From Porphyridium purpureum (taxonomy: Eukaryota; Rhodophyta; Bangiophyceae; Porphyridiales; Porphyridiaceae), in the NCBI GenBank assembly GCA_008690995.1, contig VRMN01000008.1:620001-684000 (forward strand): a stretch of DNA of 64,000 nt. Reading direction: 5' to 3'. Made by a program: the position numbers and the translations under genes. The notes beneath the pieces were generated by a model. That model was not told the origin of the DNA and did not search any database. It saw only the letters and a list, made by a program, of their open reading frames with translations. Position 1 is the stretch's first letter, and each line of letters starts with the position of its first letter. Below are positions 2 to 28,929 of this stretch, piece after piece.

Positions 2-25
2 TAGCCGTTTAGCCGTTTAGCCGTT
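2..25. repeat. Tandem 8-bp repeat (TAGCCGTT x3) at the window edge
   Basis: Three perfect copies of TAGCCGTT (reverse complement AACGGCTA) stand head to tail and may continue left of the window. The array is about 120 bp upstream of the first ATG gene. The unit differs by one base from AACGGGTA in the array at 7968-8207, and resembles the arrays at 27201-27362 and 42851-42890. Confidence 0.7.
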
Positions 26-143
26 AAGCGCGTAGCTTACCAAATCGGTCGGCGCGGCGGAAGTGGGTCGAGAAGACGTGCAGAACGCGCTGCGCGACGA
101 GCCGGAACGCGCGTCGTGGACACAGGTGCGGTGCGCAGGCAGG

Positions 144-773
144 ATGGGCACCTGGCTGGCAGCTCTGGCAGCGGTCGTCGTCGCGGTCGTGGTGGTGGTA
201 GCGGCTGTTTCGTTGAGATCGAGTTTAACGGTCCGCGCGAATGACAGCGCTCGCGATGCACCCCTTGTCGCGCGAAGCGGTCGCGGTGACGCAAAGAAGA
301 GGAAGAAAAAGAGCGCGAAGGGAATGGCGGAGACTGTGAGCGCGGATGACGTGGGCGTATCAGACAGCAAGCATGTGGAGTCAGACGCCCCAGATGGCAG
401 GCTGCGCGCAGAGAAACTCGAGTCAGGGCGTGCCAAGGACGATGCGAACGAAGATATGCTGGTATCCGATGATGGCGAAGCGCCGGAACCGGCTCCGAAC
501 CCGCTGAAAATTCCGTATGGAGGAAGAGTGCTGGATATTCCAGAGCTTCAACGGCAGCATCGCGAGGAAGGATGGCAAGAGGTTCCTCGCGCATGGCCAC
601 GTGAAGGAAAGCCGGCAGCGCCGACTCCTTCTGCTGCATCTAGCACAACATTGCCAGCTGTGGCATCCAGCAGTAGTACTCAGTCCGCTTCGTCCGCGGC
701 GAAGCAGCGCCGGCGCGCCAGACAAAAAGAACGCGCTGAAATTGTGCGCGAATTCGAGCGAAATGACCTGTGA
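144..773 (+). CDS. Small single-pass membrane protein of unknown function
   Basis: I do not recognise the family. The open frame extends upstream to a GTG at 63, but the first ATG (144) gives a 209-residue protein that begins directly with a hydrophobic helix (about residues 4-26, Ala/Val-rich), a signal anchor or uncleaved signal peptide. After it come a Lys/Arg-rich stretch (KKRKKKSAK), an acidic low-complexity linker, a short conserved-looking segment (PYGGRVLDIPELQRQHREEG) and a Ser/Thr-rich linker. The C-terminus is a basic helix (AAKQRRRARQKERAEIVR). This layout of one anchor plus a charged helical tail suits an ER-membrane adaptor exposed to the cytosol, but that is inference. The upstream flank carries the octamer repeat. 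Confidence 0.6.
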   Translation: MGTWLAALAAVVVAVVVVVAAVSLRSSLTVRANDSARDAPLVARSGRGDAKKRKKKSAKGMAETVSADDVGVSDSKHVESDAPDGRLRAEKLESGRAKDDANEDMLVSDDGEAPEPAPNPLKIPYGGRVLDIPELQRQHREEGWQEVPRAWPREGKPAAPTPSAASSTTLPAVASSSSTQSASSAAKQRRRARQKERAEIVREFERNDL

Positions 774-2848: not shown

Positions 2849-4472
2849 GTGGCATGCGCCCGTGTTTTCATGTGTAAGATTACCGACAAACTTTTTCACG
2901 TGGGCCCATTGCAATATGCACAGCCAATGAGCGCAGAAGCATTGTCCGGTGCCGGACTAGATCTATGCGACATGGTTGCGGCGCCTTTTGTGGTTTGATC
3001 GTCTTCATCTTTCGATGAGCGTTACCGATCATGGTGCGGCCGGTGAGATACCATCCGCATCGTGGGCGTTCGCTAGCGCGCCGTCGGGTTTGCGCACGCT
3101 AACAGTGCTATCGACTCTTGCGAGCAGATTCATTCATAGTGTGTGCTGGAGCGCTCTGTTGTCGTGGCGAGATCGTCACGGACCAGCAGTCTCTCTGTCT
3201 GTCTCTCTTTCATTTCGACTGAAACCGTCCTTGCCGAGCCATCTGTTGATCGCTCTGGCGCTGTCATTGAAGCATAGTTATTGAGGTCCTTGTCCTGTTC
3301 CCATACACGACCCACTAGTGAAAGGGGGCCACCGCCGCCCAAGCGTTACATTCCTTACTCACCGCTGACCGCCGGCCGACCTTGTCCGTTGTCCGTGTCG
3401 AACATGCGTGCCTTGGCGCTAGGAGCGAATACCATTCACTACCTCGTCCTCCAGTCATCATCCTTGCTCACACTCGATGACATGTGCAAAGATATACAGA
3501 ATCACAAAACCGACCTCGAACAAACGTCGCCTAGACAAAGGGCGCGCCACAGAGCTGGCTGGTCCAGCTTCTTGACCGGACACGAACACGAACCCGAATT
3601 CAGAATGATGATGTTGCCGACGCGGCCGAGGTATGGTGGCAGAGGGCTGCCCACAACGAGGCAAGCGTGAGATCCTGCTAGGGAAAAACGCGGCGTGTCT
3701 ATATCTGCGTGTCTGCGTGTGTGTGTGTGTGTATGTGTTTCCGGCTCGTCGAAACCGGAAGAGCGGCTTTTTGAACGAATGAATCATGAATCAGTCAGCC
3801 ACTCACATGCTCGACCGCGCGCATGCAGGCATAGCCGCTCCTGCGCGGCGTGGCGCGTGCAACGGCACGTCTGAATTCCGGGCCACTTTCCAAACGCGCG
3901 AGGCGGCGCGTGTCGGAAAGCAAGAGGGGGGTCGCGACGAAACGCGCTTCGCGACCGGGCGTGAGTGGCCGACCCAAAAAGCTGAGCGATGCACGCGGTG
4001 ATGCAGACAGGCGACTTTGTGGTGGACCTGTGTGTGTATGTGCCGTGAAGAACGAACGGGCTCGGCGACGTCGTGGTGCTCTGCGCGGCAGGCACGGATT
4101 GGATGTGGGTCGGCTGCGTGCGACAGGGGTGTATTTTGGCCTCTGACAAAGAACGCCGGAAGCAGCGAAAGGAGCTGAGGTCGGTTGGCACCTCTCGGGA
4201 CGGAGTGTATCAGGCATTCGCGCCAGTGTGGATATAAGCTCTGCAGTGTCTGTGCGTGAGGCCCGCGCTTATGTAGGTGGAGGCTTTGTGGAGTGCGCGA
4301 GCTTGGGAGAGGGTTGGTTGAAGAACGCAGCACGGTCGAACAAAGGCGGGGGAGTCAACAGGTGTTGCTCGTTGGCTGTTGGTTTATGCGACTAGGAGCA
4401 AGTGAATCGCTGTCGACGTCGAGAGAGCTGCAGCGCAGATACTGAGACAGTCCGTTGCTCCTCAATTCGGAA
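2849..4472. other. 1.6 kb gap without a supported gene
   Basis: Several open frames of 70-180 codons lie on both strands, but they overlap each other, mostly lack an ATG and match no family I know. A GT microsatellite lies at about 3706-3738. The right part must hold the promoter and 5' UTR of the hog gene. No tRNA-like cloverleaf or splice-site series stood out. Confidence 0.45.
3706..3738. repeat. (GT)n microsatellite
   Basis: An interrupted run of GT dinucleotides in the gap upstream of the hog gene. It makes spurious Thr/His repeat frames on the minus strand. Confidence 0.7.
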
Positions 4473-6395
4473 ATGCGAACAGCTCCGACTGCGGCCCTGT
4501 TCGGGCTGGCGCTTTTGGTCTGCGCGATGCAGCATGCAGCAGCGACGCCTGGCCCTCGTCAGGCGCAGGCTGTGCGCGAGAAAGAACTTTACCCGGAGGA
4601 GCTCGGATACGCGGGAGACACCAGGACGTACAAGTCGGAAGGCGCGCTGGTGTTCTGGGACTCGTCGTGGATGACGGACGATGTCTATGCACTTATGATG
4701 AGCACGCGACCGGGCGAGGATGTGCTCAAGTTTGTGCTGTATGTGATGTCAGTCACAAAGGGTCACCTATTTGGGTACGATTTTGGGGGCCTCGGACTGA
4801 CATTACGAGGCATAAACTCTGTGCTCACCGCAGGTGAAAAGCTGTACGCCACCACCATTGTGAATGACGGGGATGGTAATGAGGATGACATTAGCCACGC
4901 GCTCCTGTGTCTTGAATTCCCGGGTCTCGTGCCGGACAATGCGCGGGCGGTTCTGATTGGCGGTCTGCATTACAATATTGCGATTGACGAAGAAAGGTCT
5001 AATCGCGTGCTCGCCATTTCAGAGCCTCGTGCATCCTCCTTTGATTCTCAGGACCTGTCGTTCGTGCTGAACATCTACAACATCGACTTTGACTCGAGAA
5101 ACTACTCCACAGAGTACTCGCAGGAGATCATGGTGTCTGGCTTGAGGGGCGAGCGCTTCTTATTCGGGCGTGTGAAGGGCTCAGTTGGCTTGTTCGAAAA
5201 GTCCATCTACATGGTGTACGAGGCTACAGTGCTGCATTTTGAGATTGGGCGAAATAATATCCGCATGGTGCGCACGATGCAGATCCAGCATAGTGTGGGG
5301 CCGAGTGCATTGGCACGTGCCGTGGCCATTCGTCGCAGGCCTGACAACTCAGTGATCCTCGGATTAATTATGGTCGGCATTGAGCAGCGCGAGCTGATGG
5401 TTGCGCAGATTCCAGACACGGGCTTCAAGGTTTTCAGTCTGCACTCGTTTGACGTGAGCCGCCGCTCTGACTCGCGTTTTCAGCTGTACTCCGTAAGTCT
5501 GAACGCAGAGGGAGACACCGTGTCCTTTTCTGGTCTCTTTGAGCATCAAGTTCACCGCTTTGATACGGACAAGTCGGTCGTCGCGTTTGACAACAGAGAG
5601 CCATTTCAGTACTGGGCAGAGAACCCGTCGCGCGCGCACAAGTCGGACTTCTCCATTGGACAGCCGGGGCTGTTCATGTTCACAGGCACGGTTGTCGATA
5701 CTGGAGCGCTGGAGACCTCCATCACTGTCATGGTGCTCCAGGTTGATCGCACCGGCGGCGAGAATGATCCGTTTGTAAATGCCGGAAACGACGGCTCGAA
5801 CAGCTGCTTTCCTGCCAGCGCGCGAGTTATGATGGCGAGTGGAGAGTATAAGCGAATGGACGAACTCAAAAGCGGCGACAAGCTACGCACAGGCGCTGGC
5901 GCTGAGCACACTAGCGAGCTCGCTTTCTGGGGCCATCTTGAGCACTCGGGAATCTATCGCTTTGTGCGCATTTCGTATGAGCAGTGCAGCAACGACTTGT
6001 GCGAGGAGCGCCACTTGACCATGAGCCCCGGACACTTGGTGTACACTTATCCAGATTTTCAGCCGAAGACCGCGCGCTCCATTGAACGCGCGCAGCGCAT
6101 TTACCTGCTTGGCACTGGCTCAACTTCATTCGAGCTCGCCGAGATTACGCAAGTGAATTTCGTGTATGACAAGGGATTGTACCAGCCCCACACGCTCGAG
6201 CCTGGCTTAATCGTTGAGGGGGTCTTTGTGTCTGCGTACACCGAAGCCATGTTGCCGCGACTGGCGCACTCGTTGCTCTTACCGGTGCGGCTCATGTACA
6301 TTTGGATGCGCTGGAACCTGCTCGGTAATTTCTTTCACCACAGAAGCGACCTCGTTCGCCTTATTCACAGTGCTGCCAGCCGTGTGCTCGGCTAG
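4473..6395 (+). CDS. Secreted protein with C-terminal Hedgehog-type Hint (hog) domain
   Basis: 640 residues from the ATG at 4473. Residues 1-24 form a signal peptide (TAALFGLALLVCAM). Residues 25-440 are an uncharacterised, beta-rich extracellular region, possibly propeller-like. A Hint domain starts at Cys445 in SCFPASARV, the position where Hedgehog has GCF. It continues with LTMSPGHLVY (His521; the TxxH threonine is Ser here) and LIVEGVFVSAYTEA, matching the end of Hedgehog Hint domains. A hydrophobic, aromatic tail with HSLLLPVRL follows, like the sterol-recognition region. Hint domains perform an N-to-S acyl shift at the leading Cys and self-cleave, so the protein probably releases its N-terminal part during secretion. 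No hedge signalling domain is present; hog-only proteins are known in red algae and dinoflagellates. Hog identity is secure, the substrate and nucleophile are not. Confidence 0.88.
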   Translation: MRTAPTAALFGLALLVCAMQHAAATPGPRQAQAVREKELYPEELGYAGDTRTYKSEGALVFWDSSWMTDDVYALMMSTRPGEDVLKFVLYVMSVTKGHLFGYDFGGLGLTLRGINSVLTAGEKLYATTIVNDGDGNEDDISHALLCLEFPGLVPDNARAVLIGGLHYNIAIDEERSNRVLAISEPRASSFDSQDLSFVLNIYNIDFDSRNYSTEYSQEIMVSGLRGERFLFGRVKGSVGLFEKSIYMVYEATVLHFEIGRNNIRMVRTMQIQHSVGPSALARAVAIRRRPDNSVILGLIMVGIEQRELMVAQIPDTGFKVFSLHSFDVSRRSDSRFQLYSVSLNAEGDTVSFSGLFEHQVHRFDTDKSVVAFDNREPFQYWAENPSRAHKSDFSIGQPGLFMFTGTVVDTGALETSITVMVLQVDRTGGENDPFVNAGNDGSNSCFPASARVMMASGEYKRMDELKSGDKLRTGAGAEHTSELAFWGHLEHSGIYRFVRISYEQCSNDLCEERHLTMSPGHLVYTYPDFQPKTARSIERAQRIYLLGTGSTSFELAEITQVNFVYDKGLYQPHTLEPGLIVEGVFVSAYTEAMLPRLAHSLLLPVRLMYIWMRWNLLGNFFHHRSDLVRLIHSAASRVLG

Positions 6396-6649: not shown

Positions 6650-7846
6650 TCATTTCTTAGGTGGCGCCTTCTGATGGGTCTGCGCTGCAATCCACTGCAA
6701 AGTCTCTTCGCTGGGAAAAATATGGATGCTCTCGATCGGAGACTCCATGCCAGCGTCCAGCAGCATCAATCGGAGAGACAGTGCGTCGCCCACGATGATT
6801 TTAGGCCTCCGCGGCAGCTTCTGGTTCTGTCGTCGCGCAAGGTTCCAAGCGGTCATGAGGTCTCGCGAATCCAGAAAAACAGGAGAACTCCGTATACCGT
6901 CGCGGGACAGTGTCAAGCCATCGCATGAAAATAGTGGGATGATCAGATGCTTTTCCATGCGCTTGCGTATCGCTGGAGCGTGCACCCTGGCTTGGTCCAC
7001 GGCTTCTTGACTGGGAACGATGACGTGCTTTGGGTGACCTGCTTGGCGGGACGGCTGCGCGAGCTTAATCCCGTCCTCGAATCCGATCAGCCGAATCGAG
7101 CTCTTCTCAAGTGGAATACTATTCGCCCGCATAAAGCGAATCATTTCAACAGGCGACATGAAGAGCGGCACTGCGTCCGCGCCCGCATCGCTATCGGCTG
7201 ACGCTTGGTTGAGTTTGTATCCACGGCCTTGCATGTCAGTGAGCATCAGCAAGGGGATGTTCTGAAACTTTTCAAGCACCTGCTCGCGCGACATGCGCGT
7301 CTGCTCCGTGCTTGATCGGACAGGAAGCGTTCGGTTGAAGGGTCGCTCCTTATTGGTGTCTTGAGCTAACTCTCTCTGCACTGTCGAAGCCGCACCGCTT
7401 GGTTCGCTCGCATCTTTCCCACCCGGCACTCGAGCTCGAGCAGGAAGCGAGGCGGGCACCAACATGATCAGCGCCGCAGCTAGAGCTGCCGCGAGCACGC
7501 TGTCTAGTCTTAAAGACTGCGGGATCCGCAGATGCTTAAGCCTTTTTCTTTCGATCTGCGAAGTCTGGACGTTGTCTTCCGGAATCCTTGCAAGCACAAA
7601 ATCGCCATCCACGCTGGCCCCAACTGGCGTAGGCAATTGAAACGTCTCATTTGCTGATGACGCATTGTTCAGATCCATGCCTAACGAACGCACGCGCGTC
7701 GCAACTCTGCTTGTCCCGCGCATGCGACGTATACGGGAGGTCTGGACCACGCCGCTCACATCACCCGTTCTTCCACACCCGACATCGTGCCGGCTGCGCA
7801 ATACTGATAGCCCTGCTGCATCCACGAAACAACTCACTAACGCCAT
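6650..7846 (-). CDS. Tic22-like plastid protein import factor
   Basis: 398 residues from an ATG at 7846. The N-terminus (MALVSCFVDAAGL) is rich in Arg and Ser with few acidic residues and has an early Phe, as expected of a red algal transit peptide. A hydrophobic segment at about residues 115-135 (SVLAAALAAALIMLVP) could be a thylakoid or intermembrane-space sorting signal. The C-terminal 200 residues carry the Tic22 pattern: IPLLMLTDMQGRGY, a first half ending in a VEMIRFMRANSI helix, then HLIIPLFSCDG, SSPVFLDSRDLMTAWNLA and a final IIVGDALSLRLMLLDAG. Tic22 is a soluble chaperone-like protein of the plastid intermembrane space that hands precursors from Toc to Tic. Family call fairly firm; subfamily uncertain. 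Confidence 0.72.
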   Translation of the reverse strand: MALVSCFVDAAGLSVLRSRHDVGCGRTGDVSGVVQTSRIRRMRGTSRVATRVRSLGMDLNNASSANETFQLPTPVGASVDGDFVLARIPEDNVQTSQIERKRLKHLRIPQSLRLDSVLAAALAAALIMLVPASLPARARVPGGKDASEPSGAASTVQRELAQDTNKERPFNRTLPVRSSTEQTRMSREQVLEKFQNIPLLMLTDMQGRGYKLNQASADSDAGADAVPLFMSPVEMIRFMRANSIPLEKSSIRLIGFEDGIKLAQPSRQAGHPKHVIVPSQEAVDQARVHAPAIRKRMEKHLIIPLFSCDGLTLSRDGIRSSPVFLDSRDLMTAWNLARRQNQKLPRRPKIIVGDALSLRLMLLDAGMESPIESIHIFPSEETLQWIAAQTHQKAPPKK

Positions 7847-7967
7847 TACCGCTCACAAACACACAGATACCCACTCTCACACACGCACACAATCTCTCCC
7901 ACTCGTTCCCTCTCTCTCACAGGCCACTCGATCCCGGTTTCTTTCTAGTAACCGATAAGCCGATGGA

Positions 7968-8207
7968 CTGGTAAACTGGTAAACTGGTAAACTGGTAAAC
8001 TGGTAAACTGGTAAACTGGTAAACTGGTAAACTGGTAAACTGGTAAACTGGTAAACTGGTAAACTGGTAAACTGGTAAACTGGTAAACTGGTAAACTGGT
8101 AAGCTGGTAAGCTGGTAAACTGGTAAACTGGTAAACTGGTAAACTGGTAAACGGGTAAACGGGTAAACGGGTAAACGGGTAAACGGGTAAACGGGTAAAC
8201 TGGTAAG
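7968..8207. repeat. Octamer satellite, about 30 copies of GGTAAACT/GGTAAACG
   Basis: About 240 bp of perfect head-to-tail 8-bp units. The left two thirds are GGTAAACT, with two GGTAAGCT units inside. Then comes a block of six or seven GGTAAACG units, then a final GGTAAACT/GGTAAGGT. The blockwise distribution of variants suggests local expansion by slippage or unequal exchange. It lies between the divergent Tic22-like and BEACH genes, starting about 120 bp from the Tic22 ATG. A long minus-strand frame across it (a VYQFTSLP-type repeat) is an artefact, because 8 bp x 3 keeps the frame open. Confidence 0.95.
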
Positions 8208-8674
8208 GTATGCGAACTGGAGAAAACGGTTCAAGTATGGTGGTTTATCAAAAATGCATCGATTTAGTATGAGACCGGAAAACCGGTTTGTCTTCGCACT
8301 GAACGGTCCGAGCGCGATGGAGCAAGAGAGAGAGAAAGAAAGAGAAAGAAAGAGAAAGAGAGAGACACGAGACGAGACGTAGACAGGAGGCAATCGGTGT
8401 AGGGGCACTAGATGAGCTGTGCTGGGGTGCGCTGGGATTTGGCCGACGGACTTCGAACGCTGCGTTTCAGTTGCACGCGTGGCGGACTGGGTGGTTTCTT
8501 CTTGGCTTGTCTCGGTTGAAACAAACGTTCCTCGAATTTTTGCTGGTCGAGATTGGGTGAGCTCGGCGATTGCTCTGGGAGGAGCCACGTCGCGACGGAA
8601 CGTGGTGGGTGGCCTTGTGAATCATGTGTTGATGCTGTTTGTTGAAGCGGTTTGTTGATGAGGTCGTTGTTGCA
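8208..8674. promoter_or_regulatory. 5' flank of the BEACH gene with a GA-rich tract
   Basis: Between the octamer satellite and the BEACH start lies a purine tract (GAGAGAAAGAAAG type, about 8322-8366). The rest is unremarkable sequence with short open frames, read here as promoter and 5' UTR. No TATA-like element was obvious. Confidence 0.4.
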
Positions 8675-11600
8675 ATGCACGCGTGGTGGAAGTATGCGGT
8701 GACTCTGCATGCGCCGCACGGATATGCGGACGCTGCATCTGCGCTGGGTCAGGCCAGACGGTTGGCTGCGTTGCACGTAAAAGTAGGCGAACACTTGCGC
8801 GCAGTAGAGCGTGCGGAAATCCTTGACTTTAATTTTTTCAGTGCGGCCGGCGCTGGTAGAGACGATAGGTTTCAAGACCAGTCGACGGCACAGCTGCGAC
8901 CAGGCACGGCCACTCAAAATGCGGAAAGTGACCTGGATCTCGTGGAATGGACGCGAGAAGTACAACGTGTTTTGCGTACAGGGCTAGAAGCGGGGGCGGT
9001 TCAACAAGTTTTACGTACATTTCATGCCGCGCAGCCACGATTGCTGGCTCTTTCTCGTGAACATAAGGAGTTGCAGAAGCTGTGGCTCGCAGTGCTCAAA
9101 CAATGCGAGGTGGTGATTGGCGCTCAGCGCGCGAACGCATTCATGTCGACTGCAGGATCAACTTCAATTTCATCGAGCGGATCTGACACACTTGCGCCCG
9201 AGCTGTTGCAGTTAAGCGTACCGCAGCTTATGGCCGTGGCACTGGTGAACTTGGAGCAGTGCGGCACAAGCTTCAATTGGGCGCCAGATGTAGCCAAAGT
9301 GGTAGTAGCCACCACATCGCGTTCGCTGGAGTGGATGTGCATGCAACTCCTAGTGAGTTGTGACCAGATCATGGGTGACTTTGCGCTGCGCTCGGCTTCG
9401 GCCTCAACTTCCAGTCATTCCGGAGTTGTGAGTTTGGGGCTCGCGGACAAATCAATTGACATAGCATGCCGCTTGTGGCTAGGCGTGCGCGTTTTGATTG
9501 AGCCAGTGTTCCGGTTACTGTTGCTCCTTCACGCGCATGCTCAGGCTGTCCGGCTGTTCGAGAAGCTGCAAGTAGCGTTTATCCACCTGGTGCCCGGGCT
9601 CGGCTCCAGTGTGGTCGCGACGCATCTTGAGCTGTGGCTTTTGGATACAGCACTCAGCCACCCCTGCTTTTCGCAGCAAAGGTATGCGTCCAAAAAGCTT
9701 GTTGACCTTATACTTGCTGCGCTGCAGCTGCGAAGCTGGGAGTTTGCCTTGGCCATTCGCCGCAAGGGTGTGCTGCAGCTGGATATGCCTCTAAGCAGCA
9801 TGCCCATCGACGCACGCGGCGACGTCCGCACGCTCCTTGACCGATTTTTGTGTCGCGTCCGCCTCGCACAATTCCTCGGCGTGCTCGGTCGCCGCGACGA
9901 GTCTCTTGCCATGCACATTTTTGACGCGCGGCAAGGCCTCTGGATGGTTGAGCTTCTCATCGTATGCGAAGCGTGGGAGTGCAAACCTTTGCTTGCCCTC
10001 GTCGTGAGGGCTTGCTTTGCGATCGCCGACCCATTCTTGGACCGCAGCGATGGCGCCGACGACGGACTGCAGGTGGGCCGAAGTGGCGGCGAGAGCGGAC
10101 GGCTTAATTTGTGCTCATCGTACACGGCCATGCTGCTGTTGGCTGCTTTCTTTGAGGTGGTTTTGAAAACCGCGAGACTCGAGGCAACATTTGACGTTTA
10201 CATGGAGTGTTGCGAGCAGACGCTCGACCGGTTTGGGGATGCTGCGGCGCGGCTATTTTCGAGCCGCAACATGTACAAGACTTTGGTGGAGGTTTTTGCA
10301 GCGACACGGTCTTTGCTGCGGAGCAAGCACGCACCGCCACCGCTTGCGTCCCACCATCAGCAGCAGCAACAACAACAACAACAACAAGGACCGTCTCATT
10401 CGCGTGCGGCGGACGCATCGCGGACCGTCAGAAAGTATGGAAGCGATAGCGCAGACGCAAAAAATGTGGGTGGAGAAGCAAAGGATCAGAAAGACGAAGA
10501 TGGCTACATGCGCATCATGACGCTCGTACAGCGCGCTTCGGCTGTTCGGGTGGAAGCTGAAGTTAAAGCAGGTAGTGACGGTACTGTAGAAACCTTCGGA
10601 GGCAGCACAGATGAATGGCTGTGTGTGTGCAACATTCTGCTCACCCATTGGCCTCGTCTTCTGCAACACCAGCGTTTCGACGCTACTGCGCGCGTATGCT
10701 CGAGCATTCTTATGTGTATGGATGAGGAAACACACAGAGCGCTCATCGCAAATGGCAATTTTTCTCCTATTATCCGCCTGGCATGCCGCATTGCCCGCGA
10801 GTTGGACGAGCCGAATATGGGAGCAAATTCTCCACGGTCGTCGAGTCATGCTAGTCATCTGCTGCGCCATTCCTTGACGCCAGCTATGCAGGAGATGTAT
10901 ATTGCGGCGCTAGACCGGCTGGCACTAATTATGGAGGGTGCGTTTGTTACAGCGTCAGCCCTTGTTGACGCCTTGCGCGCAGCGCAAAGTACGTGCGAGT
11001 TTGCAGAACTTCTCACATTTCGCTACACCGTCAGCACCGGGATGAAGCTTTTCGTTCGCATCATGAACGAACCTTGCCCCGGGTACGGCGCACCTGCCGG
11101 AGGTGCTCTATTGTCCAGCACAGCATCGAGAGTAGGAGCTGATTTTTCGTACTCCACGGCAGGTGCGGATGCCGCTGAAACCAACATTCGAACGCCCGAA
11201 ATAGGGAAGGGCAACTCGCCTGGGGTGCATTTGGTCAGAAAGGACACGTCGTTAATGCCCGATGGTTGGGCATTGAGCGCATCCCTAGGTGCTGATGTCG
11301 ATGCCAGTGGTGCCGCATCTGCGACAGAGGTGAAGGGACGAGGGCACGTTGCGAGGAGCGCAACATCAGCAATCCTGCCAACACAGCCACTCCGTGCTCG
11401 GGCGGGCGTGTCACCTGGTCAAGGTGAAATCCTGCTTTCTACTGCCGTCGCGCCGGTGGACGGGCTGCCTGCGGCAGTACTTGCAGGCAAGCGCGCGATA
11501 GTGCTAGCCATTGTGCGAACGCTTGGGCGACTCGCGGGACAGCTGAAGCTCGTGCAACAAAGCCGGCGCGCGCGCTTTGCGCTCAAAATTTTGTCCATTG

Positions 11601-14600
11601 CGCTGGCAGGCTTCTGCGATATGGTTCTTCCTTCCTCTCCCAAGGAGAATCTACGCGTGTTTAAAGACTGTATGGTCTCGCGCGAGATCCGTTCTCTCGT
11701 GACGAAAGCGTGTGTTATCGACCGCGTCGATGGTGACTTGAATGTAGACTCGGCAAACCGCGCCCTCATTTCGTACTCTGACTTGGAATCGTTCGTGTCC
11801 TCAGTAATTCAAACGTTGACATACATTCATTATGGTGTCAAAGGCCGACTAGACCTGGCGATCTTCTTCCAGGAGACTGAATTCAGCGATGAGATCTGGT
11901 GTCTAACAGGCGGCAGTGTAAATCCTAACCGCTCATTCTCGCACAAGGTTATGGACACCTTATTTTCGATCCTCGTGGAGAATTCACGGGGCACGCTGGC
12001 GCTCTTTGAAAAGCGATCGGAAAAGACTCGTTTGTCGGATGACGAAGCTTTGCTGTGGCATATTCGCAATCCAAGCGCACTTGCCATGATGCTGCGTTTG
12101 ATTCGGAAGGCGTCGTACGCGTCCGTGGATCAGTCCAGATCGGCGGATAGTTTTGATGCAGATACCAGCCTGTGTGACGTTGAGAAGGTGCTGAGCGCAA
12201 TTTCTAACCTTGTAGTGGCTTGCACGACCAATCGTGCAGCATGCGCGAACGCAAACTTGCTTGACGTTGTGCTGGAGTGGCTCGAGGCTGATGAAGGCCT
12301 TATTCGGCAGAATGAGCCTAGCGATGAGGCGCAGATGGTTGCCCTACGCGTGGTGAGTCTCATGGGGATTCTCGTAGAATACTCGATATCTCCGCCTCAA
12401 ATGATGCGTGTACTCAGCCTCTTGCGTAGAGGGTCAAGGTCCGGACCGAATTCAGGAGCGAGGATCGAGCGGCGTGCACTGGTGACAGGGGCTGTGCTGG
12501 ATATTTTGAATTTATCGTTCATCGAAAAGGAAGGGCCGCCCGCGTTCTTCGACTTGAGCGGCAAGCGTTCCGGCCTCACGGCCAATGATATGAACATTGC
12601 CCTGAGCAGTTCTGGATCCCGCAGCGGTTATTCTGCCGCGCTGTGGGTTCGTCTAGAGCGTACGAGTGCGCATTCGGTTCTATTTGCCATCGCGGATGAC
12701 GCTGGTGGCCTCGTTGAGCTCGCGCTCATGCAAAACCATTGCTTAAGTATTCGACTCGCCCAGCATGGTGCGGGGGTGGTCTCAGCTTCGCATACAGATT
12801 CAAACGCACCATCAAACGCATCTCCTTCCGATTTGACTCGCTCGGGAACTACGACACGAAAGAATTTTGAAGCGGACCGCGACGCGGACGGCCAAGGGTC
12901 TGATTTATTGTACAACGTTGGCGGGATCGCTTCATCAGTAGCCGGACAACAGCAGCGTTCAGTACCCGCGCTGGCTGGAAATTTGAAAAACGATGTGCAC
13001 AACACTCGCGTGCAGCTTCCAGACTCACAGTGGTGCCACATTTTGCTCACACATTCTCTAAGCACTGGTGGGGCATCTGCGTTTTCAATACCAATGTCGT
13101 CTAAGGGCACTGAACAGAAGTGTCATATCTACTTGAACGGCGTGTGCGTGTACGCGGAGGCGCTCCGGCTCGCCTCCTCTCAAGGGCATGGTGCCAAGCT
13201 GTTCGGGAATGGACTCGTGAAAGCGGTGTCATTTGGTTGCACCACGAGCGGCGCGCAGTGCTTTATGGGTCAACTGGGTGCAACATACGTTTTCTCGGAC
13301 GTTTTAAACGCTGATGTTGCAGCCACGCTTGCTTCGCTTGGCCCAGCGTTCGATGGTAATTTGCTGTTCCCGAATGTGCCGCGTCTGTTGGTGTCTCCGC
13401 CGCAGCAATTGGGCGAGAATTTGAACAATAGGAAACGCAAGGGCGCTCTTGTGGCGCGCGCAGGGCCCATTCGTACGATGCTTGCTTCTTCCGAGTGGAA
13501 CAGCAAGGTTGTGGAGCGTGTGATGCTCCTCTTCGCACCGCGCGCATCGAACGGACGCATCTGTCCAGACAATTCGTTGGGCGGCGCGTCCGGCACGCTA
13601 CTGTCAACTTTCTGTCGAATTGCAGGCCCAGAGTACGCTACGCAACTGTGCCTAGCCCAAGATATTCGCGACAGCTTTAGTATTGCAGGAGGTATATCCG
13701 AGTTACTTCCTATTTTTGCATGTCTCGATGCTTTGTGCGTGCAACAAGAGGGAGCGGGCAAAAATAAGCCAATTCCAGAATCCCTCCAGGTGCTTCCCAA
13801 GCTGCTGCACTTGTTGGGTGTGGTAGTTTGCACGGACTCGCTATATCGAAGCACGTTCCTGCACCGGCGCGGCTTCCAGATGATTTCCTTTATTCTGAAA
13901 GAGCGTTGCACGCCGCGCCACCGCACGCGCCGTGTCGTGCGCGCAATCTGGGATCTTGTGGATGAGTTTTGCGCGCTGGGCTCGGCACGTGAGCATAGCT
14001 TGCTAGAGCAGACAAATACCGGCTCCGCTTCAGTGTCTTCGTCACTCGCGGGATCGAAGGAAAAGGATACGGCGGGTAGCAGCTTCCTTAATTTTCAAGA
14101 CAGCAGCGCAGGCCTGCCGAAGACTTCCGAGATGTTTGTGATGACAGCCTCGCTGGTCCGCGCGCTTGTGCTGGACCCACTCATGTGGATCGCCCCTGGC
14201 GTGGACTTAAGTACCGCGCTGCAAATGTACGCGGCCGTACTCGATTGCTTGGAATATCCACATGCCGGCGTTGCTCCCGGGACAAACTCTGGAGCGGAAA
14301 ATACATCAGCGCCTTCCGGGAGTGGGTCTTCCGTCAGCATGGGTATCACCGATGATAACTACGCAAGCACTAAGCGCAACGTGATCATGTACTGCTTGGA
14401 CGTTCAATCGATTATTGATCTGTGCATGGAGCTCTCACTCCCAGAGTCCATCTTATCGGTGGATACAAGTCGTTCAGATGGTTCAATGGGATCGAGGAGT
14501 GAGCAAATGGAGTTGTGCATCCTTCTCTTACGGATTACCGTGCGTGCGGGTGTATTGCGAGCCAAGGAACGCAGCCTGACAGCGTGCAATGAGTGCCTGC

Positions 14601-17600
14601 GCGTACTCTTCAATATCTTTGACCGGGCAAGCAGTGACATGGGCAGCAGCAGAATTGAGGACAAGTCGGAAGCACAGAACGCTCAGGTCGTGGCTACGTG
14701 CTTACTCACCGTTCTCTGTGGCGATGAATACTATGAGCGCCCGCAATGCTCCAATGATACACTATTATTTTTCAGTCGTGGGTCTTCAAAGTCGCTGTTT
14801 GTGACCTTGATCAACCTATTCTGGTCACCTGTTGACAAGCTGCGGTTGGGGGCCATTCAGCTTGCTTGCCAGATCGAAGGCATGTCATCAACGGGGATCG
14901 CACTCAGCCCCGGCACGTCGTATAACAAAAATCGCGTGAACGTTGGTTGTTCGGCTTTAGCTGCGCTTCTGTCGCATCGGGTCAACAAATCGGCTTGTAT
15001 TCTGGCGCTTGAGGTGGCGTTTGGGCCCACCTCATACTCGCCATTCGTGCCGGTGGTATTTGCGCTGTTGTGCGCCGACCGCGAGTGGAAACTTTCTACG
15101 TCCTCGCTACGTGCCATGACTGCACGCATCAAGGCAGACAAATCAGCCGGCGTCCGTATCCTTAGTTTCCCGACATGGCCACAGTGGATGCAGAAGCTTT
15201 GCACCCGCGATATTCCGACCTCAGAATCATCTACCGCTCTGGCTGCAGAGTTCTATGTGGCTTTGGACGCGCTTCTCTACGCCCTTCTAGATTGTGCTTT
15301 TGCTGAGGGTCCCACGCTTTTCCTGCAACAGGTAGAGCGACTGCTGCTGACCGCTGACTACCGGCTCTCCCGCCGAGCACTCTTGGTGATGCTGGACCTT
15401 GCGCAAAACGTATTTGTACCGCTCGCGCTCTTGTCGCGGAGCGGCGGCGGTGGAGGGAGTCATGCTGGTGGTAGCAGTATTCATCACCCACAACCTGAGC
15501 AGCAAAAGCAGAATGCATGGATGGCATGTTTTGCGGGTATCGTGCTTCTCGGTGAAGTGCTTTTGTACGGCCGCAACCCTGAGCAATTCGACTCGGACTT
15601 GGCGTTACATTTGGTCAACACGATGCGCATAATGGGTGTCTGGCAGCGGCAAGCCTTGCAGCTCACGCTCACGCTATCGAGCTTGAAGTCATCTTTTCTT
15701 ACGAGCGGACGCGTTTCGATGGACGTGGCTGTGCAGGGCATCAATGTGACGTGTGTCGATGCCGTGTCAAGCACCAGTTCATCGGCCGCCAGTTTGCCGG
15801 CCGGCGGGCAACAGCAGCTCCAACCACAGGACACAGGCGAAAATAACAGCAGCGGCGTTGAAGATCATTTAAGTCGACTGGAGCACACCGTAGAGGCCCT
15901 TGCTGCTCTCGGTGGCTTCTTGCGGCCATGCCTTCGCACATTGTGCTCCATGGTGGCTTGGGCTGTGGATGAAAAAGCCAGCGCTGAAATCGCTCGGATT
16001 CTGATTGAAGCTGTCAAGCCATTTGGCGGGCAGCCGTCATCGTCCTCGTCAAAGACATCATCGTCGTCGTCCTCCTCCTCCTCTTCTGCGGTCCCTGGAA
16101 GTGGCCAGAACCCGCTCAGGTGGCAGTTCTACTTACGAATGACACTATCAAGATTGATGGATGAATGCGAATTGAAGCAGAGATCCTCGGGGATTCGTGA
16201 CCATGACCCTGCTGCCGACTTGCCTCGCCGGGCGTGGTTGGAAGACGCGCTGCAAGCGGTGGAGGCCAATTTTAAGGAGAGCAAGAAAAAGAGTAAGTTC
16301 AAACTCTTTGGTTTGAACATGGCGATGAGCGGTTCCAGCGGAGCGTCGAGCGACAAACTTGAAGAGGAAGCAGATGCCGCAGCGCGTGCCATGCTCAAGG
16401 AGCAGGACTGGACTCTTGCGCTGGGCGCACGTGCCGAAGTAATATGCGCTGAAATGGAGAAGATTGAGAAGGAACAGGACGCACTCAAATTTGAAACGGG
16501 CTTTCTGCTGAAAGATTCTGTGTCAAAGAGCGTAGATAAGATGCTAAGTGAGGAGGCTAGCCGATTGTCTCTGTCACAGATCAAAGACGCGATGGCCGCG
16601 GCTGCAGTAGAGAAGCACTGGAGCAAACTAGATCGCGCCCTCATTACCGAGCGTCTCGAGAATATTGACCCAAATTCTATGCTTTGGAAGCTGGATACCT
16701 GCGAGGACGCGCTGGGTCGGCGCTTTCTTATGCAGTGGGATACGAATGGTGTGAACCGCGCTGCCGCTGCACACTCGCCCGACCCTGATGCGCAGGCCGG
16801 GTCGTCGATGCCGTCGCCGTCACCCAGTGAAATTACTCAGCGGGCTATTTCTGAAATAGGTGAGCTACAAATTAGTGCACCGGTGGCTGTGGTGGCATCG
16901 GGAGGCGCGGTTTCATTGGCGGCGGGCTCTGATCGGCGCGATCAGAATCAAGAAAACCTGGACCGTTTCGAAGAGCTAGTGCTCAATGAGCAAGGAAATG
17001 ACGTGCCCGAAGACGAGCTAGAACACCAAGTACGCTCACTGACACGGCTCGATTCCATTTTGAATCGACAAAACGCGGCTGCCCAAGGCAAAAAGGGCAC
17101 CGTTCAGAACACTCGCGCTGCCAGAAGGCAGTTTCAACGTTTTGGCACGGCACACGGCACCGAGTCCGGTGGCGTCGGTTCCACGACGGCTTTGGTGGAT
17201 GCCTCGGCGTCAGCGTCAGCGTCATCTGCGCTTAATGTCAGTACGCAGCATGAGGCCGCAGCCAAGCAGATTGCAGTGGCAGGGGCTGCGGCGTCATTTT
17301 CAGGTACGACGCTCTGGAGCGGCGATGCCATGTTCATGCGACCAACCTACGTGTGCGGAGGCCGCCTTGAAATGAGCAGACACGAATTGATTTTCCGCCC
17401 CTTGGGTAGGAGCGCGAGCGCAAGCTCCAGCCAAAAGAAGAGCAATGCTAGCGAGCCGGACTCTAGTTTGGTTGGCGCTGACGACGAACGTGGTGATGGT
17501 GAAGGTGCTGATAGCGACGACACCAACATGAATTCCGCGCCTACGTCATCCGAAAAGTGGATCGATGAGCGCGCGTTCTCGCTTCATTCAATCGCAGAAG

Positions 17601-20209
17601 TATTGTTCCGACGGTACGCCCTTCAGCCGCGCGCCGTGGAAATCTTTTTCAGTGAGAGGAGGAGCCACCTGCAATATGTATACAGGAACCATAGCCAATC
17701 TCAGCGAGAAATATTCCTCGTATTCTCGAGCGAGACGGTGCAAAAGGCGTTCCTGAAGGCGCTTAAGGAGCAGCTCAAGCGTATTGGAAACACATTCGGC
17801 GCGGCGCGTGTGCTTTCGAGTCCTCGCCACTGCATGGATGCGCTGAAGCCGGCTACGGAGGCGTGGCGCGCCAAGAGCATGAGCACTTTTCAGTATCTCA
17901 TGCTGGTGAACAAGTACGCTGGCCGCACGTACAATGACATGTCGCAGTATCCGGTTTTTCCGTGGGTGTTGGCGGACTACTCGGCATCGGTGCTTGATCT
18001 CGCAAGCGCGGATGTCTTTCGCGACCTGAGCAAGCCTATGGGCTGCCAGCGAAGCGAGGAGGAGGTTGCACGTGGCGTTTTGGAGTCGGCACGCGAGCAG
18101 CTGTTCCGCAAGCGGTACGCAGAATGGGCCGATCCGAGCACGGGTATCCCACCGTTTCACTATGGCTCGCACTACTCGTCACCAGGCAGTGTGCTGGGCT
18201 TCCTTGTTCGCGTCGAACCCTTTACGGAATTGTTTCTGCGGAACCAGGGCGGTACCTTTGACTATGCGGACCGCATGTTCCGTTCCGTGCGCCTGGCGTA
18301 CAAGTCAGCGACCGAGTCGACCCAGAACGTGAACGAATGTATTCCAGAGTTTTACTACCAACCCGAAGTATTTCGTAATCGCAACCGTCTCCCGCTTGGC
18401 GTGCTGCACGATGGGTCCGAGGTTGGGGATGTTGCGTTGCCACCGTGGAGTCTGAACTCGCCGGATCTATTCGTCAAGATGCACCGTGAGGCGCTTGAAA
18501 GCGTTCATGTTTCTTCCACGCTACATCTGTGGATTGACTTGGTCTTTGGAGTGAAACAGCGCGGGCCGCTCGCGAAAGAAGCATGCAATGTATTCTACTA
18601 CCTCACCTACGAAGGCACGGTTGACCTTGACCGCATTCATGACCCTAAGGCGCGAAGCAGTATTGAAGCACAGATCCAGCATTTCGGTCAAACACCCTTG
18701 CAGCTATGGAGCAAGCCACACGGGCAGCGCGACGTGAGCAGTGTAGATGTCTCTGGTTCGTCCGTGGTTTCCACGGGTGCGGATCGTCATATTCAGCGAC
18801 ATGTCAATGATGATCTGGACTGGCCATTAGCGGTGCTAGACGCGGAGAGCGTCTCGATGCAAGATGGCATTGTGCTTTTACAGCACGTGGGCTCGTATGT
18901 GTTTACAATTTGCCGCTCGCGATCGCTTGCGACGCATCGATGGTCGCCGTTGCCTGACCTGGAAGGCAAGCCGTATACGTTTGAGCCAGACTGCAAGGTG
19001 GTGATGTCTGGCGAGACAGAGCGCGCGACATTGCGCAGTGTGACCGGGCGAACTCGCGGCAGTTCATCTCGAGTAGGGCGCCGAGTTGGCGGAGCACACG
19101 TTGCACCAGTCCTGCGTGACTTTGAAATGGGCTCACTGTATGCCATCACGAAGGACGGACGCTACGTGATCAGCGGCGGACACTGGGACAACTCTGTACG
19201 GCTGAGTGCAACCAGTGAACCTGGTCGACCAAAACAAGTCCTTTACCATCACCGGGATGTCGTCACATGCGTAACACTTAGCCAGGACGGCGAGACGCTA
19301 GTTACCGGCGCACGCGATACACTGGTGATTGTGTGGGATATGGTGGCCGCCCCCGCCAAGGCGACGACCACGCTCAACTCTATGGCCGCGGCTGTGGTTT
19401 CTGGTCCCACGGGCTCCTCTTCTCCACCACATGGTTCTCTGCCAGACACTGGCGGCGGCAGTGGTGCAGGCGTGGGACTTTTGGGCTCGCCGCTCGTGCT
19501 GGCTGTCCGCGTGGGCTCGATTGATGCCGGCGCCTCGGATTTCAAGCTGGATGGCCAATCAGAGCGGACCGCTTCGCTGCCTCCTTCAGCCAATGTGATG
19601 GCCACCGGCCTTGGTGGCGCACACGCAAAGCAGGTAGTGCGGCCAGAGCCGCGCTTTGTGCTACGTGGGCACAAGGGCCCAGTGAGCTGTGTGGCGGTGC
19701 ATTCGGGCATTGGCGTGATTGTCAGCGGCGACGAGAGCGGCTGGATGCTGACGCACTCATTCAGAAAGGGCACTCTTTTGCGTGCCGTGCGGGATGTAGG
19801 TGTAATCAGCCGATGCATGGTGAGTGCACATGCCGAGGTTCTTCTGTACGCCCGAACCACGCGCGAGCTGCAGATCCAGACGATCAACTTTGGGCTGCTC
19901 GCACGCGTGGTATGCGACGACGGGCTTGAATGTTTCGCCGCGAGTTCGGATGGGCGGTTCTTGTACACTGGAACGCAGAGTGGACGCGTGCAGATCCGGA
20001 ATCGCGCGTGTCTGAACGTGATCCACGAGTATGCTCCGCTAGAGGGCGCTGTGATGAGTGTCGCGCTGTCCACCGACGAGAGCGTGCTTTTCGCGGCCGT
20101 CACGTCGGGCAGACTGTACGTCTTCTGGCTCGACCGAGAACGCTTGCTGTCACTTCTTGCGTTTCCAACGCTGCATGGCGTCTCTCACTTGGGAACCTTC
20201 ACGGCATGA
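8675..20209 (+). CDS. Giant BEACH-WD40 protein (neurobeachin/LRBA class)
   Basis: About 3,844 residues in one exon from the ATG at 8675 (a TTG lies 36 bp upstream). Order of regions: an alpha-helical repeat N-terminus (to about 1300) interrupted by a polyglutamine tract (near 560) and Ser/Gly linkers; a ConA-like lectin module (about 1315-1555, SGYSAALWVRL); a further helical region with a poly-Ser run (near 2460); a PH-BEACH domain (about 2880-3040, split by an acidic Ser-rich insert); the BEACH domain (about 3065-3350, with FPWVLADY and FHYGSHYSS); and a C-terminal WD40 propeller (about 3385-3844). The class organises vesicle traffic, lysosome-related organelles and autophagy by scaffolding membranes. 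It is convergent with the rhomboid gene, 120 bp away. Confidence 0.95.
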   Translation: MHAWWKYAVTLHAPHGYADAASALGQARRLAALHVKVGEHLRAVERAEILDFNFFSAAGAGRDDRFQDQSTAQLRPGTATQNAESDLDLVEWTREVQRVLRTGLEAGAVQQVLRTFHAAQPRLLALSREHKELQKLWLAVLKQCEVVIGAQRANAFMSTAGSTSISSSGSDTLAPELLQLSVPQLMAVALVNLEQCGTSFNWAPDVAKVVVATTSRSLEWMCMQLLVSCDQIMGDFALRSASASTSSHSGVVSLGLADKSIDIACRLWLGVRVLIEPVFRLLLLLHAHAQAVRLFEKLQVAFIHLVPGLGSSVVATHLELWLLDTALSHPCFSQQRYASKKLVDLILAALQLRSWEFALAIRRKGVLQLDMPLSSMPIDARGDVRTLLDRFLCRVRLAQFLGVLGRRDESLAMHIFDARQGLWMVELLIVCEAWECKPLLALVVRACFAIADPFLDRSDGADDGLQVGRSGGESGRLNLCSSYTAMLLLAAFFEVVLKTARLEATFDVYMECCEQTLDRFGDAAARLFSSRNMYKTLVEVFAATRSLLRSKHAPPPLASHHQQQQQQQQQQGPSHSRAADASRTVRKYGSDSADAKNVGGEAKDQKDEDGYMRIMTLVQRASAVRVEAEVKAGSDGTVETFGGSTDEWLCVCNILLTHWPRLLQHQRFDATARVCSSILMCMDEETHRALIANGNFSPIIRLACRIARELDEPNMGANSPRSSSHASHLLRHSLTPAMQEMYIAALDRLALIMEGAFVTASALVDALRAAQSTCEFAELLTFRYTVSTGMKLFVRIMNEPCPGYGAPAGGALLSSTASRVGADFSYSTAGADAAETNIRTPEIGKGNSPGVHLVRKDTSLMPDGWALSASLGADVDASGAASATEVKGRGHVARSATSAILPTQPLRARAGVSPGQGEILLSTAVAPVDGLPAAVLAGKRAIVLAIVRTLGRLAGQLKLVQQSRRARFALKILSIALAGFCDMVLPSSPKENLRVFKDCMVSREIRSLVTKACVIDRVDGDLNVDSANRALISYSDLESFVSSVIQTLTYIHYGVKGRLDLAIFFQETEFSDEIWCLTGGSVNPNRSFSHKVMDTLFSILVENSRGTLALFEKRSEKTRLSDDEALLWHIRNPSALAMMLRLIRKASYASVDQSRSADSFDADTSLCDVEKVLSAISNLVVACTTNRAACANANLLDVVLEWLEADEGLIRQNEPSDEAQMVALRVVSLMGILVEYSISPPQMMRVLSLLRRGSRSGPNSGARIERRALVTGAVLDILNLSFIEKEGPPAFFDLSGKRSGLTANDMNIALSSSGSRSGYSAALWVRLERTSAHSVLFAIADDAGGLVELALMQNHCLSIRLAQHGAGVVSASHTDSNAPSNASPSDLTRSGTTTRKNFEADRDADGQGSDLLYNVGGIASSVAGQQQRSVPALAGNLKNDVHNTRVQLPDSQWCHILLTHSLSTGGASAFSIPMSSKGTEQKCHIYLNGVCVYAEALRLASSQGHGAKLFGNGLVKAVSFGCTTSGAQCFMGQLGATYVFSDVLNADVAATLASLGPAFDGNLLFPNVPRLLVSPPQQLGENLNNRKRKGALVARAGPIRTMLASSEWNSKVVERVMLLFAPRASNGRICPDNSLGGASGTLLSTFCRIAGPEYATQLCLAQDIRDSFSIAGGISELLPIFACLDALCVQQEGAGKNKPIPESLQVLPKLLHLLGVVVCTDSLYRSTFLHRRGFQMISFILKERCTPRHRTRRVVRAIWDLVDEFCALGSAREHSLLEQTNTGSASVSSSLAGSKEKDTAGSSFLNFQDSSAGLPKTSEMFVMTASLVRALVLDPLMWIAPGVDLSTALQMYAAVLDCLEYPHAGVAPGTNSGAENTSAPSGSGSSVSMGITDDNYASTKRNVIMYCLDVQSIIDLCMELSLPESILSVDTSRSDGSMGSRSEQMELCILLLRITVRAGVLRAKERSLTACNECLRVLFNIFDRASSDMGSSRIEDKSEAQNAQVVATCLLTVLCGDEYYERPQCSNDTLLFFSRGSSKSLFVTLINLFWSPVDKLRLGAIQLACQIEGMSSTGIALSPGTSYNKNRVNVGCSALAALLSHRVNKSACILALEVAFGPTSYSPFVPVVFALLCADREWKLSTSSLRAMTARIKADKSAGVRILSFPTWPQWMQKLCTRDIPTSESSTALAAEFYVALDALLYALLDCAFAEGPTLFLQQVERLLLTADYRLSRRALLVMLDLAQNVFVPLALLSRSGGGGGSHAGGSSIHHPQPEQQKQNAWMACFAGIVLLGEVLLYGRNPEQFDSDLALHLVNTMRIMGVWQRQALQLTLTLSSLKSSFLTSGRVSMDVAVQGINVTCVDAVSSTSSSAASLPAGGQQQLQPQDTGENNSSGVEDHLSRLEHTVEALAALGGFLRPCLRTLCSMVAWAVDEKASAEIARILIEAVKPFGGQPSSSSSKTSSSSSSSSSSAVPGSGQNPLRWQFYLRMTLSRLMDECELKQRSSGIRDHDPAADLPRRAWLEDALQAVEANFKESKKKSKFKLFGLNMAMSGSSGASSDKLEEEADAAARAMLKEQDWTLALGARAEVICAEMEKIEKEQDALKFETGFLLKDSVSKSVDKMLSEEASRLSLSQIKDAMAAAAVEKHWSKLDRALITERLENIDPNSMLWKLDTCEDALGRRFLMQWDTNGVNRAAAAHSPDPDAQAGSSMPSPSPSEITQRAISEIGELQISAPVAVVASGGAVSLAAGSDRRDQNQENLDRFEELVLNEQGNDVPEDELEHQVRSLTRLDSILNRQNAAAQGKKGTVQNTRAARRQFQRFGTAHGTESGGVGSTTALVDASASASASSALNVSTQHEAAAKQIAVAGAAASFSGTTLWSGDAMFMRPTYVCGGRLEMSRHELIFRPLGRSASASSSQKKSNASEPDSSLVGADDERGDGEGADSDDTNMNSAPTSSEKWIDERAFSLHSIAEVLFRRYALQPRAVEIFFSERRSHLQYVYRNHSQSQREIFLVFSSETVQKAFLKALKEQLKRIGNTFGAARVLSSPRHCMDALKPATEAWRAKSMSTFQYLMLVNKYAGRTYNDMSQYPVFPWVLADYSASVLDLASADVFRDLSKPMGCQRSEEEVARGVLESAREQLFRKRYAEWADPSTGIPPFHYGSHYSSPGSVLGFLVRVEPFTELFLRNQGGTFDYADRMFRSVRLAYKSATESTQNVNECIPEFYYQPEVFRNRNRLPLGVLHDGSEVGDVALPPWSLNSPDLFVKMHREALESVHVSSTLHLWIDLVFGVKQRGPLAKEACNVFYYLTYEGTVDLDRIHDPKARSSIEAQIQHFGQTPLQLWSKPHGQRDVSSVDVSGSSVVSTGADRHIQRHVNDDLDWPLAVLDAESVSMQDGIVLLQHVGSYVFTICRSRSLATHRWSPLPDLEGKPYTFEPDCKVVMSGETERATLRSVTGRTRGSSSRVGRRVGGAHVAPVLRDFEMGSLYAITKDGRYVISGGHWDNSVRLSATSEPGRPKQVLYHHRDVVTCVTLSQDGETLVTGARDTLVIVWDMVAAPAKATTTLNSMAAAVVSGPTGSSSPPHGSLPDTGGGSGAGVGLLGSPLVLAVRVGSIDAGASDFKLDGQSERTASLPPSANVMATGLGGAHAKQVVRPEPRFVLRGHKGPVSCVAVHSGIGVIVSGDESGWMLTHSFRKGTLLRAVRDVGVISRCMVSAHAEVLLYARTTRELQIQTINFGLLARVVCDDGLECFAASSDGRFLYTGTQSGRVQIRNRACLNVIHEYAPLEGAVMSVALSTDESVLFAAVTSGRLYVFWLDRERLLSLLAFPTLHGVSHLGTFTA

Positions 20210-23885: not shown

Positions 23886-25542
23886 CGCGCGCGCAGTCTC
23901 TTGGCCATGCGCGCATCGGTAGGAGACACGCGACACGCACAGCCGAAGAGGTACAGCTTCCCGATGGCGAGGTACAGTTTAATTTTGGGATGACAACTGT
24001 ACCCGAAGTTCAGTGCAGTGTGATTGAATCGCGTTGTCTGATCAGACAGCGCGGCTCGGCTGGTGCGCGGGTGTGGAAGAGAGGGCAAAGGGGTGGTGCG
24101 GGGCAGTTGGGAACGACGACTCGCCGTCCAAGCGACCTTCTGCCGCTTCAGCGGATGGAGTGCTCTGTCCTCGGCGACTCGCTTCCGCTGCTGGTCTTGG
24201 AGAAAGGTTCGCTCTCAGCTTGCTCGTTTCTGGGCACGCGTTTGAAATTCCTCTCGCACTCGCCGATCCCCAAACGTGTGCTTCGGCTCACGTCTGTGAT
24301 AGTACCGTGAAGACGCTTTGTGCAGACCGGGCAGCTACGAGCAGCATGGCGCATGGCCCGTCTACCATCTGGGTGACGTCGGCGGAGACTGCCTGTCACA
24401 GTCGATACCATACTTCCACATGCCTCTGCCTTTCTACAAACCGCTCATCCCGCAAGCGTGAAAGAGACATATGCTGACCAAAAAGCGCGCACCCAATCCA
24501 GGTAAATGCAAGGCGTGATCGTCTGTCGTAAGATTTCGACCACGTACGCCCATCCCGACTGTCTCGACTAGCTGTGTGGCGAGCGGGTGTCAAGCAGACA
24601 AGAAAGCAAGCAAAGCGGTCGCACGCTCGCATGGACAGACTGGAGCCACGCGCCCGTTCCATTCCATCCGCACAAACGATCCAACATCACAGCGGTGGGC
24701 CCCCACCCTCAAAATGAGAAGAACGAGGATAAAGCAAAGGATGCCAACGCGCTGTCCATATCGGGGTGTGCTCGGTTATTTTCCAGCCCCGTTTCCGTTC
24801 ACGCACAAACCTCTTCCAAAACATCACGTCATGCCTTTTGCGCGCACACATATGCCGCGAGAGTAAGAAGAACACCAGAAACAACAAGGTATCGGAGTAT
24901 TTTGCGCCCAACAAAGCGGACAGGGATACACCGACCGACCGACCGAGCGACCGACCGACACAGCGATAGGCCGAGCAGCTGGCAACCGTGCACGGTACGG
25001 CTGGTGTGCGTGTGTGTATTTTTGTTTCCACGCGGCGCGGCAAGAGCTGACCGGGGAGGAACCCTAGCGCGATACCGCCTGCGGAGCGTTTTGGGCCATC
25101 CACTCCGACTGCGTTTATATTCGATGATTCACTCACCCGAAACGACAGGCACTTCCCCTCATCCCTTCCGCGCGTGCGCTGTTTGGCACGAACCAAAGCG
25201 AGCCTCGTAAAACCACACCGTTTCGCACGCTTTGTGGATTTTTTTTTTATGGTGGGGCGGTTTGTTGTGTGTGTATTTTCGGGTTTCTCTCTGTATGTGT
25301 CGCTCTGTGTCTCTCTCTCTCTTCCAGAAGCGCTGCGTGTGTTGTGTTTGTGTGTGTGGGCATGCTGTGAGCGCGGCTGTGCGTTGTGAAAGCGGCTGTG
25401 CTTCACCGGCTTGTGCGTCACGAGCTAAGCCGTCTTTCGACAGCCATGAAACACACAAAGCACCTCTGGCAAGATCGGTGTGCCGCAAAAGCGCTCCTAA
25501 TCTCACTGCACGCGTTGCACCGGCTCTAGAGGGACGCGTGAG
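23886..25542. other. Long intergenic region upstream of the bZIP gene
   Basis: About 1.66 kb between divergent genes. It contains many short frames on both strands without ATG or family support, pyrimidine-rich stretches, short GT-rich tracts near 25,270-25,370, and an imperfect (CCGA)n stretch around 24,931-24,960. The most likely content is the two promoters, with an unusually long control region for the bZIP factor. An unannotated spliced or non-coding transcript cannot be excluded. Confidence 0.4.
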
Positions 25543-25550
25543 TATATAAA
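25543..25550 (+). promoter_or_regulatory. TATA box of the bZIP gene
   Basis: TATATAAA stands 117 bp upstream of the bZIP ATG in GC-richer surroundings (GTGAGTATATAAAGC). It is the clearest core-promoter element in the window, and would place transcription start about 90 bp before the ATG. Confidence 0.6.
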
Positions 25551-25666
25551 GCTTGCGCGACTTTGCACACAGACAGGAGGTTGGTGCAACGGGAGGGTAA
25601 GACAAGTGGGCACGAGGTAGAAGAAGAGTTTCCTAGTATCGTGCGCGAAGGAAGGAAAGTAGAACG

Positions 25667-27200: not shown

Positions 27201-27362
27201 CTCGGCAACACGGCAACACGGCAACACGGCAACACGGCAACACGGCAACACGGCAACACGGCAACACGGCAACACGGCAACACGGCAACACGGCAACACG
27301 CTCACACGGCAACACGGTCACACGCTCACACGGCAACACGGTCACACGCTCACACGGCCACA
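27201..27362. repeat. Octamer satellite (CGGCAACA)n, about 20 copies
   Basis: About a dozen perfect CGGCAACA units (equivalent to AACACGGC) are followed by a higher-order section alternating CGGCAACA, CGGTCACA and CGCTCACA. It starts about 45 bp from the EF-hand ATG on the promoter side. The plus-strand frame across it, made of repeated Ala-Thr-Arg-Gln-His-Gly-Asn-Thr, is an artefact. It is the same size class and position as the arrays at 2-25, 7968-8207 and 42851-42890. Confidence 0.95.
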
Positions 27363-28698: not shown

Positions 28699-28700
28699 TA

Positions 28701-28840: not shown

Positions 28841-28929
28841 ATCAGCGACAATCCAAGGCTGCGCGTGGACAGGCGGCACGAATTTTCATCTTCGTGTGCG
28901 CTCATGTGCGACACAATCGCTCATGTACC

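Follow-up and report, generated by a model that had tools for sequence, protein, structure and literature searches.

Tandem octamer arrays in a 64-kb window of eukaryotic nuclear DNA, three of them built on the unit TAARCKGN

The window analysed here is a 64,000-base stretch of eukaryotic nuclear DNA, and it holds four tandem arrays with a period of 8 bp, three of which (arrays 1, 2, and 4; Table 1) have the common unit TAARCKGN, i.e. TAA-A/G-C-G/T-G-N. All arrays are intergenic, and they are likely to be octamer minisatellites that expanded through slippage within the non-coding DNA close to gene starts; any promoter effect would be secondary. The G+C content of the window is 52-61% in 2-kb windows, and its genes are long and intron-free, the BEACH/WD40 gene having 3,844 codons; other encoded products include EF-hand, Pet127-family, PWWP, SAGA-Tad1, DUF2254, and Rubisco-LSMT-type proteins, and several window proteins have N-termini that look like plastid transit peptides. 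We infer that the window fits a unicellular red alga such as Porphyridium purpureum, whose genome has a G+C content of 55.5%, only 235 introns, and large genes that are often intron-free (PMC10866757). The protein encoded at 4473-6395 combines an N-terminus resembling a signal peptide with a Hint (hedgehog/intein) module at its C-terminus (Pfam E 4e-21).

An earlier note on this DNA had listed four arrays with a period of exactly 8 bp, and TRF recovered all four. No period-8 array at the observed score appeared in first-order Markov simulations of the window, and the head-to-tail copies of the arrays exceed chance. When an exact match run of at least 12 was required and sub-periods were excluded, four separate perfect arrays were counted for period 8 and none for periods 5, 7, or 9-15; the preference for period 8 in this window is real, though based on four arrays. 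A fifth, imperfect stretch, missing from the earlier list, has a unit unrelated to those of the other four. The window was also searched for tRNAs and other known RNAs, and none was found, at the arrays or elsewhere.

Table 1. Period-8 repeats of the window and a motif located within array 2
Feature	Position (strand)	Unit or motif	Copies	Basis
Array 1	2-29 (-)	TAGCCGTT on + = TAAACGGC on -; period 8	3.5	TRF
Array 2	7967-8206 (+)	Consensus ACTGGTAA; mostly TAAACTGG	30 (98% match)	TRF
G-quadruplex-type motif	8153-8195 (+)	G3N5G3, six GGG tracts, in TAAACGGG block of array 2		Pattern match only
Array 3	27203-27362 (+)	CGGCAACA	~20	TRF
Array 4	42851-42873, decaying to ~42897 (-)	AACCGCTT on + = TAAGCGGT on -	2.9 (perfect)	TRF
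Fifth stretch, imperfect	3704-3738 (+)	TCTGCGTG, running into (GT)n	~3	TRF

The arrays differ in length and internal order. Array 1 touches the start of the window and may extend further leftward; its decayed edge reaches ~41, with GGTAAGCT on the - strand, and the array lies ~115 bp upstream of the ATG of the ORF at 144-773 (+). Read in the TAARCKGN frame, array 2 consists of 16 TAAACTGG, 2 TAAGCTGG, 4 TAAACTGG, 6 TAAACGGG, and a final TAAACTGG, with degenerate units flanking both edges. The right end of array 3 carries a 24-bp higher-order repeat composed of three variant octamers, CGCTCACA CGGCAACA CGGTCACA. This array is 48 bp upstream of the ATG of the EF-hand gene (26607-27155, -), in a 3.1-kb gap where the start of the right-hand gene is 2.9 kb off. 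In array 4, the good copies are followed by the decayed units AAGCTGTT, TAACCGGA, and AACTGGAT, some in opposite orientation.

When all rotations and both strands are considered, the four array units show one or two differences from TAAACGGC. Random units of non-coding composition or permuted units were equally similar with P ~0.001-0.01, a value that weakens to 0.035-0.05 when the fifth array (3704) is added. For a stricter test, the eight columns of each array were permuted, which preserves both composition and internal variation. The similarity among arrays 1, 2, and 4 was reached by 0 of 5,000 such trials, whereas the profile of array 3 gave P = 0.33 against array 2, 0.56 against array 4, and 0.048 against array 1. 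Thus, arrays 1, 2, and 4 form a group in which array 3 has no demonstrated place. The proposal that a shared period goes together with related units stands for these three and is not borne out for the array at 27203, so that relatedness beyond chance is not supported for all four units together. The common frame is represented by TAAACGGC in array 1 (-), by TAAACTGG, TAAGCTGG, and TAAACGGG in array 2 (+), and by TAAGCGGT in array 4 (-), the edge of which also carries the unit TAAGCTGT in the same frame on the + strand; array 3 contains no TAARCKGN units. Scanning the window with the array 2 profile returned arrays 1 and 4 as the best non-self matches, in a procedure that favours periodic sequence of any kind.

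The earlier note had held that every array marks the 5' flank of a gene, and all four indeed have a gene start as the nearest gene end. Yet the same applies to 13,301 of the 21,559 non-coding bases in our gene models (62%), and finding 4/4 arrays in this class has a chance P of 0.14, with the low power of a 64-kb window, and the claimed association is not borne out. The placement of two arrays between divergent genes is confirmed: array 2 is flanked by a gene at 6650-7846 (-) and the BEACH/WD40 gene at 8675-20209 (+), and array 4 by the Pet127-family (40296-42746, -) and PWWP (43062-44426, +) genes. Array 3 likewise has a - gene at its left and a + gene at its right. That no array lies inside a gene is correct but was to be expected in intron-poor DNA for any period that is not a multiple of 3, since such repeats disrupt reading frames. 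The 5' flanks of genes in the window also hold further simple repeats, (GA)n included. Purine (GA-rich) tracts on the sense strand were seen at 8324-8365, 34931-34960, 42990-43007, and 54635-54659, beginning 29-351 bp upstream of the ATGs of + genes, each within a divergent intergenic region.

The internal structure of the arrays carries the signs of slippage or unequal exchange, namely perfect central copies, decayed edge units, contiguous variant blocks (2 x TAAGCTGG and 6 x TAAACGGG in array 2), and a higher-order repeat (the 24-bp unit of array 3). These processes copy a mutation to neighbouring units and typically leave contiguous runs of a single variant as well as higher-order units; both are present here and point to local slippage or unequal exchange. 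A non-coding stretch in which an 8-mer was by chance present in two or three near-copies would have provided the seed, which would then have been enlarged through replication slippage or unequal exchange. Arrays would survive between genes since growth with a period of 8 would ruin reading frames, and they would be found close to gene starts mainly because most of the non-coding DNA of a compact, intron-poor genome is there. The recurrence of TAARCKGN in three arrays would probably go back to seeds of a common class, or to a preference of the mutational process, in the genome. By analogy with the tandem repeats of yeast promoters, the arrays may incidentally keep the flank nucleosome-poor or carry repeated factor sites, and any effect on transcription would be incidental. 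Neutral slippage alone does not predict a single preferred period or a unit common to three arrays, which leaves a modest unexplained residue.

Octamer arrays of similar units are found in other genomes. In bacterial genomes, a single scan yielded 39 stretches of (TAAACKGG)3, 26 of them from three related lake Bacteroidales MAGs, and they are accompanied by related variants. These three MAGs (L004, L010-L014, L020, L022, L029, L036) hold many GGTRARCN-type octamer arrays, which in L022 form an inverted pair whose members face each other between two ORFs. In Robertkochia marina (L016:3990-4120), a TATGCGGT-type array passes straight into 12 copies of TAAACGGG, and these two units are close to those of window arrays 4 and 2. 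In viral contigs, GGTRARCN repeats occurred at 15 loci compared to 7, 8, and 13 for three equally degenerate permuted octamers and, with three identical units required, at 12 loci compared to 6, 7, and 10; in this comparison GGTRARCN was taken as a whole, and TAAACKGG itself is rare within it. The excess over the permuted octamers is small and arrays of an arbitrary unit are common, and we counted this in favour of an ordinary-minisatellite origin. An octamer special across kingdoms was rejected, as the permuted controls were nearly as frequent in the viral contigs, consistent with a general background of octamer repeats. We regard the bacterial arrays as a parallel that provides no evidence for either function or descent.

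A unit common to three arrays, two of which (arrays 2 and 4) sit between divergent gene starts, could also mean that TAARCKGN is a promoter site, either MYB-like with the core AACKG or of another kind, that expands in tandem, its copy number tuning the flanking, often divergent, genes. TAAACKG includes AACKG, which is similar to MYB cores. However, isolated copies of TAARCKG outside the arrays are not enriched in non-coding DNA (8 compared to 4.8 expected, P = 0.12, with low power in 64 kb; 4 in coding DNA), and neither is isolated AAACNGG in the window (z = 0.3). Moreover, the AACKG core is broken in the TAAGC variants, array 3, the closest to an ATG, has a unit with no demonstrated relation to the others, and the orientation of the arrays relative to genes is inconsistent. 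The promoter element that expands, as suggested earlier, is thus possible but unsupported, because the link to 5' flanks is not significant (with the same low power) and isolated units are not enriched, and we regard the tuning of genes by such a site as unlikely. Isolated AAACNGG, AACNG, and TAARCKG were dropped as promoter motifs for lack of enrichment. Literature searches for promoter motifs or octamer repeats in Porphyridium returned nothing relevant. Among other motifs of the window, a GAGGTACAGT-type motif occurs at 23948-23978, 28672, 28796, 53470, and 54577, some copies being 60-220 bp upstream of gene starts, and GGTACAGT/ACTGTACC is enriched in non-coding DNA (7 compared to 0.5 expected) with 0 copies in coding DNA; a regulatory motif with a GTAC core is a possible reading of the GAGGTACAGT-type copies.

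It seems rather unlikely that TAARCKGN represents a genome-wide octamer family that recurs at promoters, either through a binding factor or through a mechanism that generates or spreads period-8 repeats. If it did, many genes would have a tunable homotypic array. Genome-wide occurrence of the shared period and unit would make a compact red-algal genome a clear test of whether tandem repeats close to promoters are selected binding arrays or a by-product of mutation. The present lead is small and well defined, with three arrays, one unit core, and one preferred period in 64 kb.

The arrays could instead be nucleosome-excluding boundaries kept under selection to open divergent promoters, in which case the exact unit would be unimportant. 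Arrays 2 and 4 are in divergent promoters that also contain (GA)n tracts, and nucleosome-free promoters of yeast are enriched for tandem repeats (PMC3899988). On the other hand, three other divergent intergenic regions (23886-25666, 34070-34959, and 54427-54679) are without an octamer array, and the shared unit is left unaccounted for; we consider such a boundary role improbable. Least of all do we favour the telomere-like seed of the earlier note, here taken as interstitial copies of a present or older chromosome-end repeat that telomerase would have added at breaks. A telomerase template would produce related units at a fixed period, and GGGTAAAC is G-rich on one strand and gives the G-quadruplex-type motif of array 2. 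However, arrays 1 and 4 have units that are not G-rich, the arrays face both ways, and a single template would not yield several unit types. The decayed edge units suggest growth in place rather than clean insertion, and no array unit matches any of three red-algal telomere candidates from the literature, AATGGGGGG, TTATT(T)AGGG, and TTAGGG (PMC7046594). This reading was set aside as highly improbable.

Taken as minisatellites, the arrays belong to the known kind of non-coding tandem repeats. Promoter tandem repeats are a recognised class, present in ~25% of yeast promoters (PMC3899988), and the variable ones of yeast and other organisms likewise have short units in 5' flanks, signs of slippage, and variant blocks. 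The window arrays differ from them in preferring an 8-bp unit and in having no significant 5'-flank enrichment within the window. The micro- and minisatellites of plants and green algae are also non-coding tandem repeats, with the highest density in land plants found in the 5'UTR and the 200 nt upstream (PMC3887541); that survey is without red algae, and in the window one period and one unit core dominate. Compared with telomeric and interstitial telomeric repeats, the arrays share a fixed short period but differ in the points given above, including their inconsistent G-richness. The TAACTGA heptamer repeats of Beggiatoaceae, Cyanobacteria, and Bacteroidetes are mostly intergenic, often upstream of start codons, reach up to 43 copies, and have an unknown function (PMC4679880). 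Like the window arrays, they are short tandem units with one dominant sequence located mostly between genes; they differ in having a period of 7 bp rather than 8, in being bacterial, and in sitting no more than a few bases from start codons. That TAACTGA resembles TAAACTGG is probably a coincidence.

A 3.1-kb gap devoid of long ORFs contains an inverted repeat at 28699-30144, the 39-nt arms of which (28699-28737 and 30106-30144) are 82% complementary. Further inward copies of ATAGGACC/GGTCCTAT are located at 28824 and 29992, and the element looks like a 1.45-kb non-autonomous DNA transposon.
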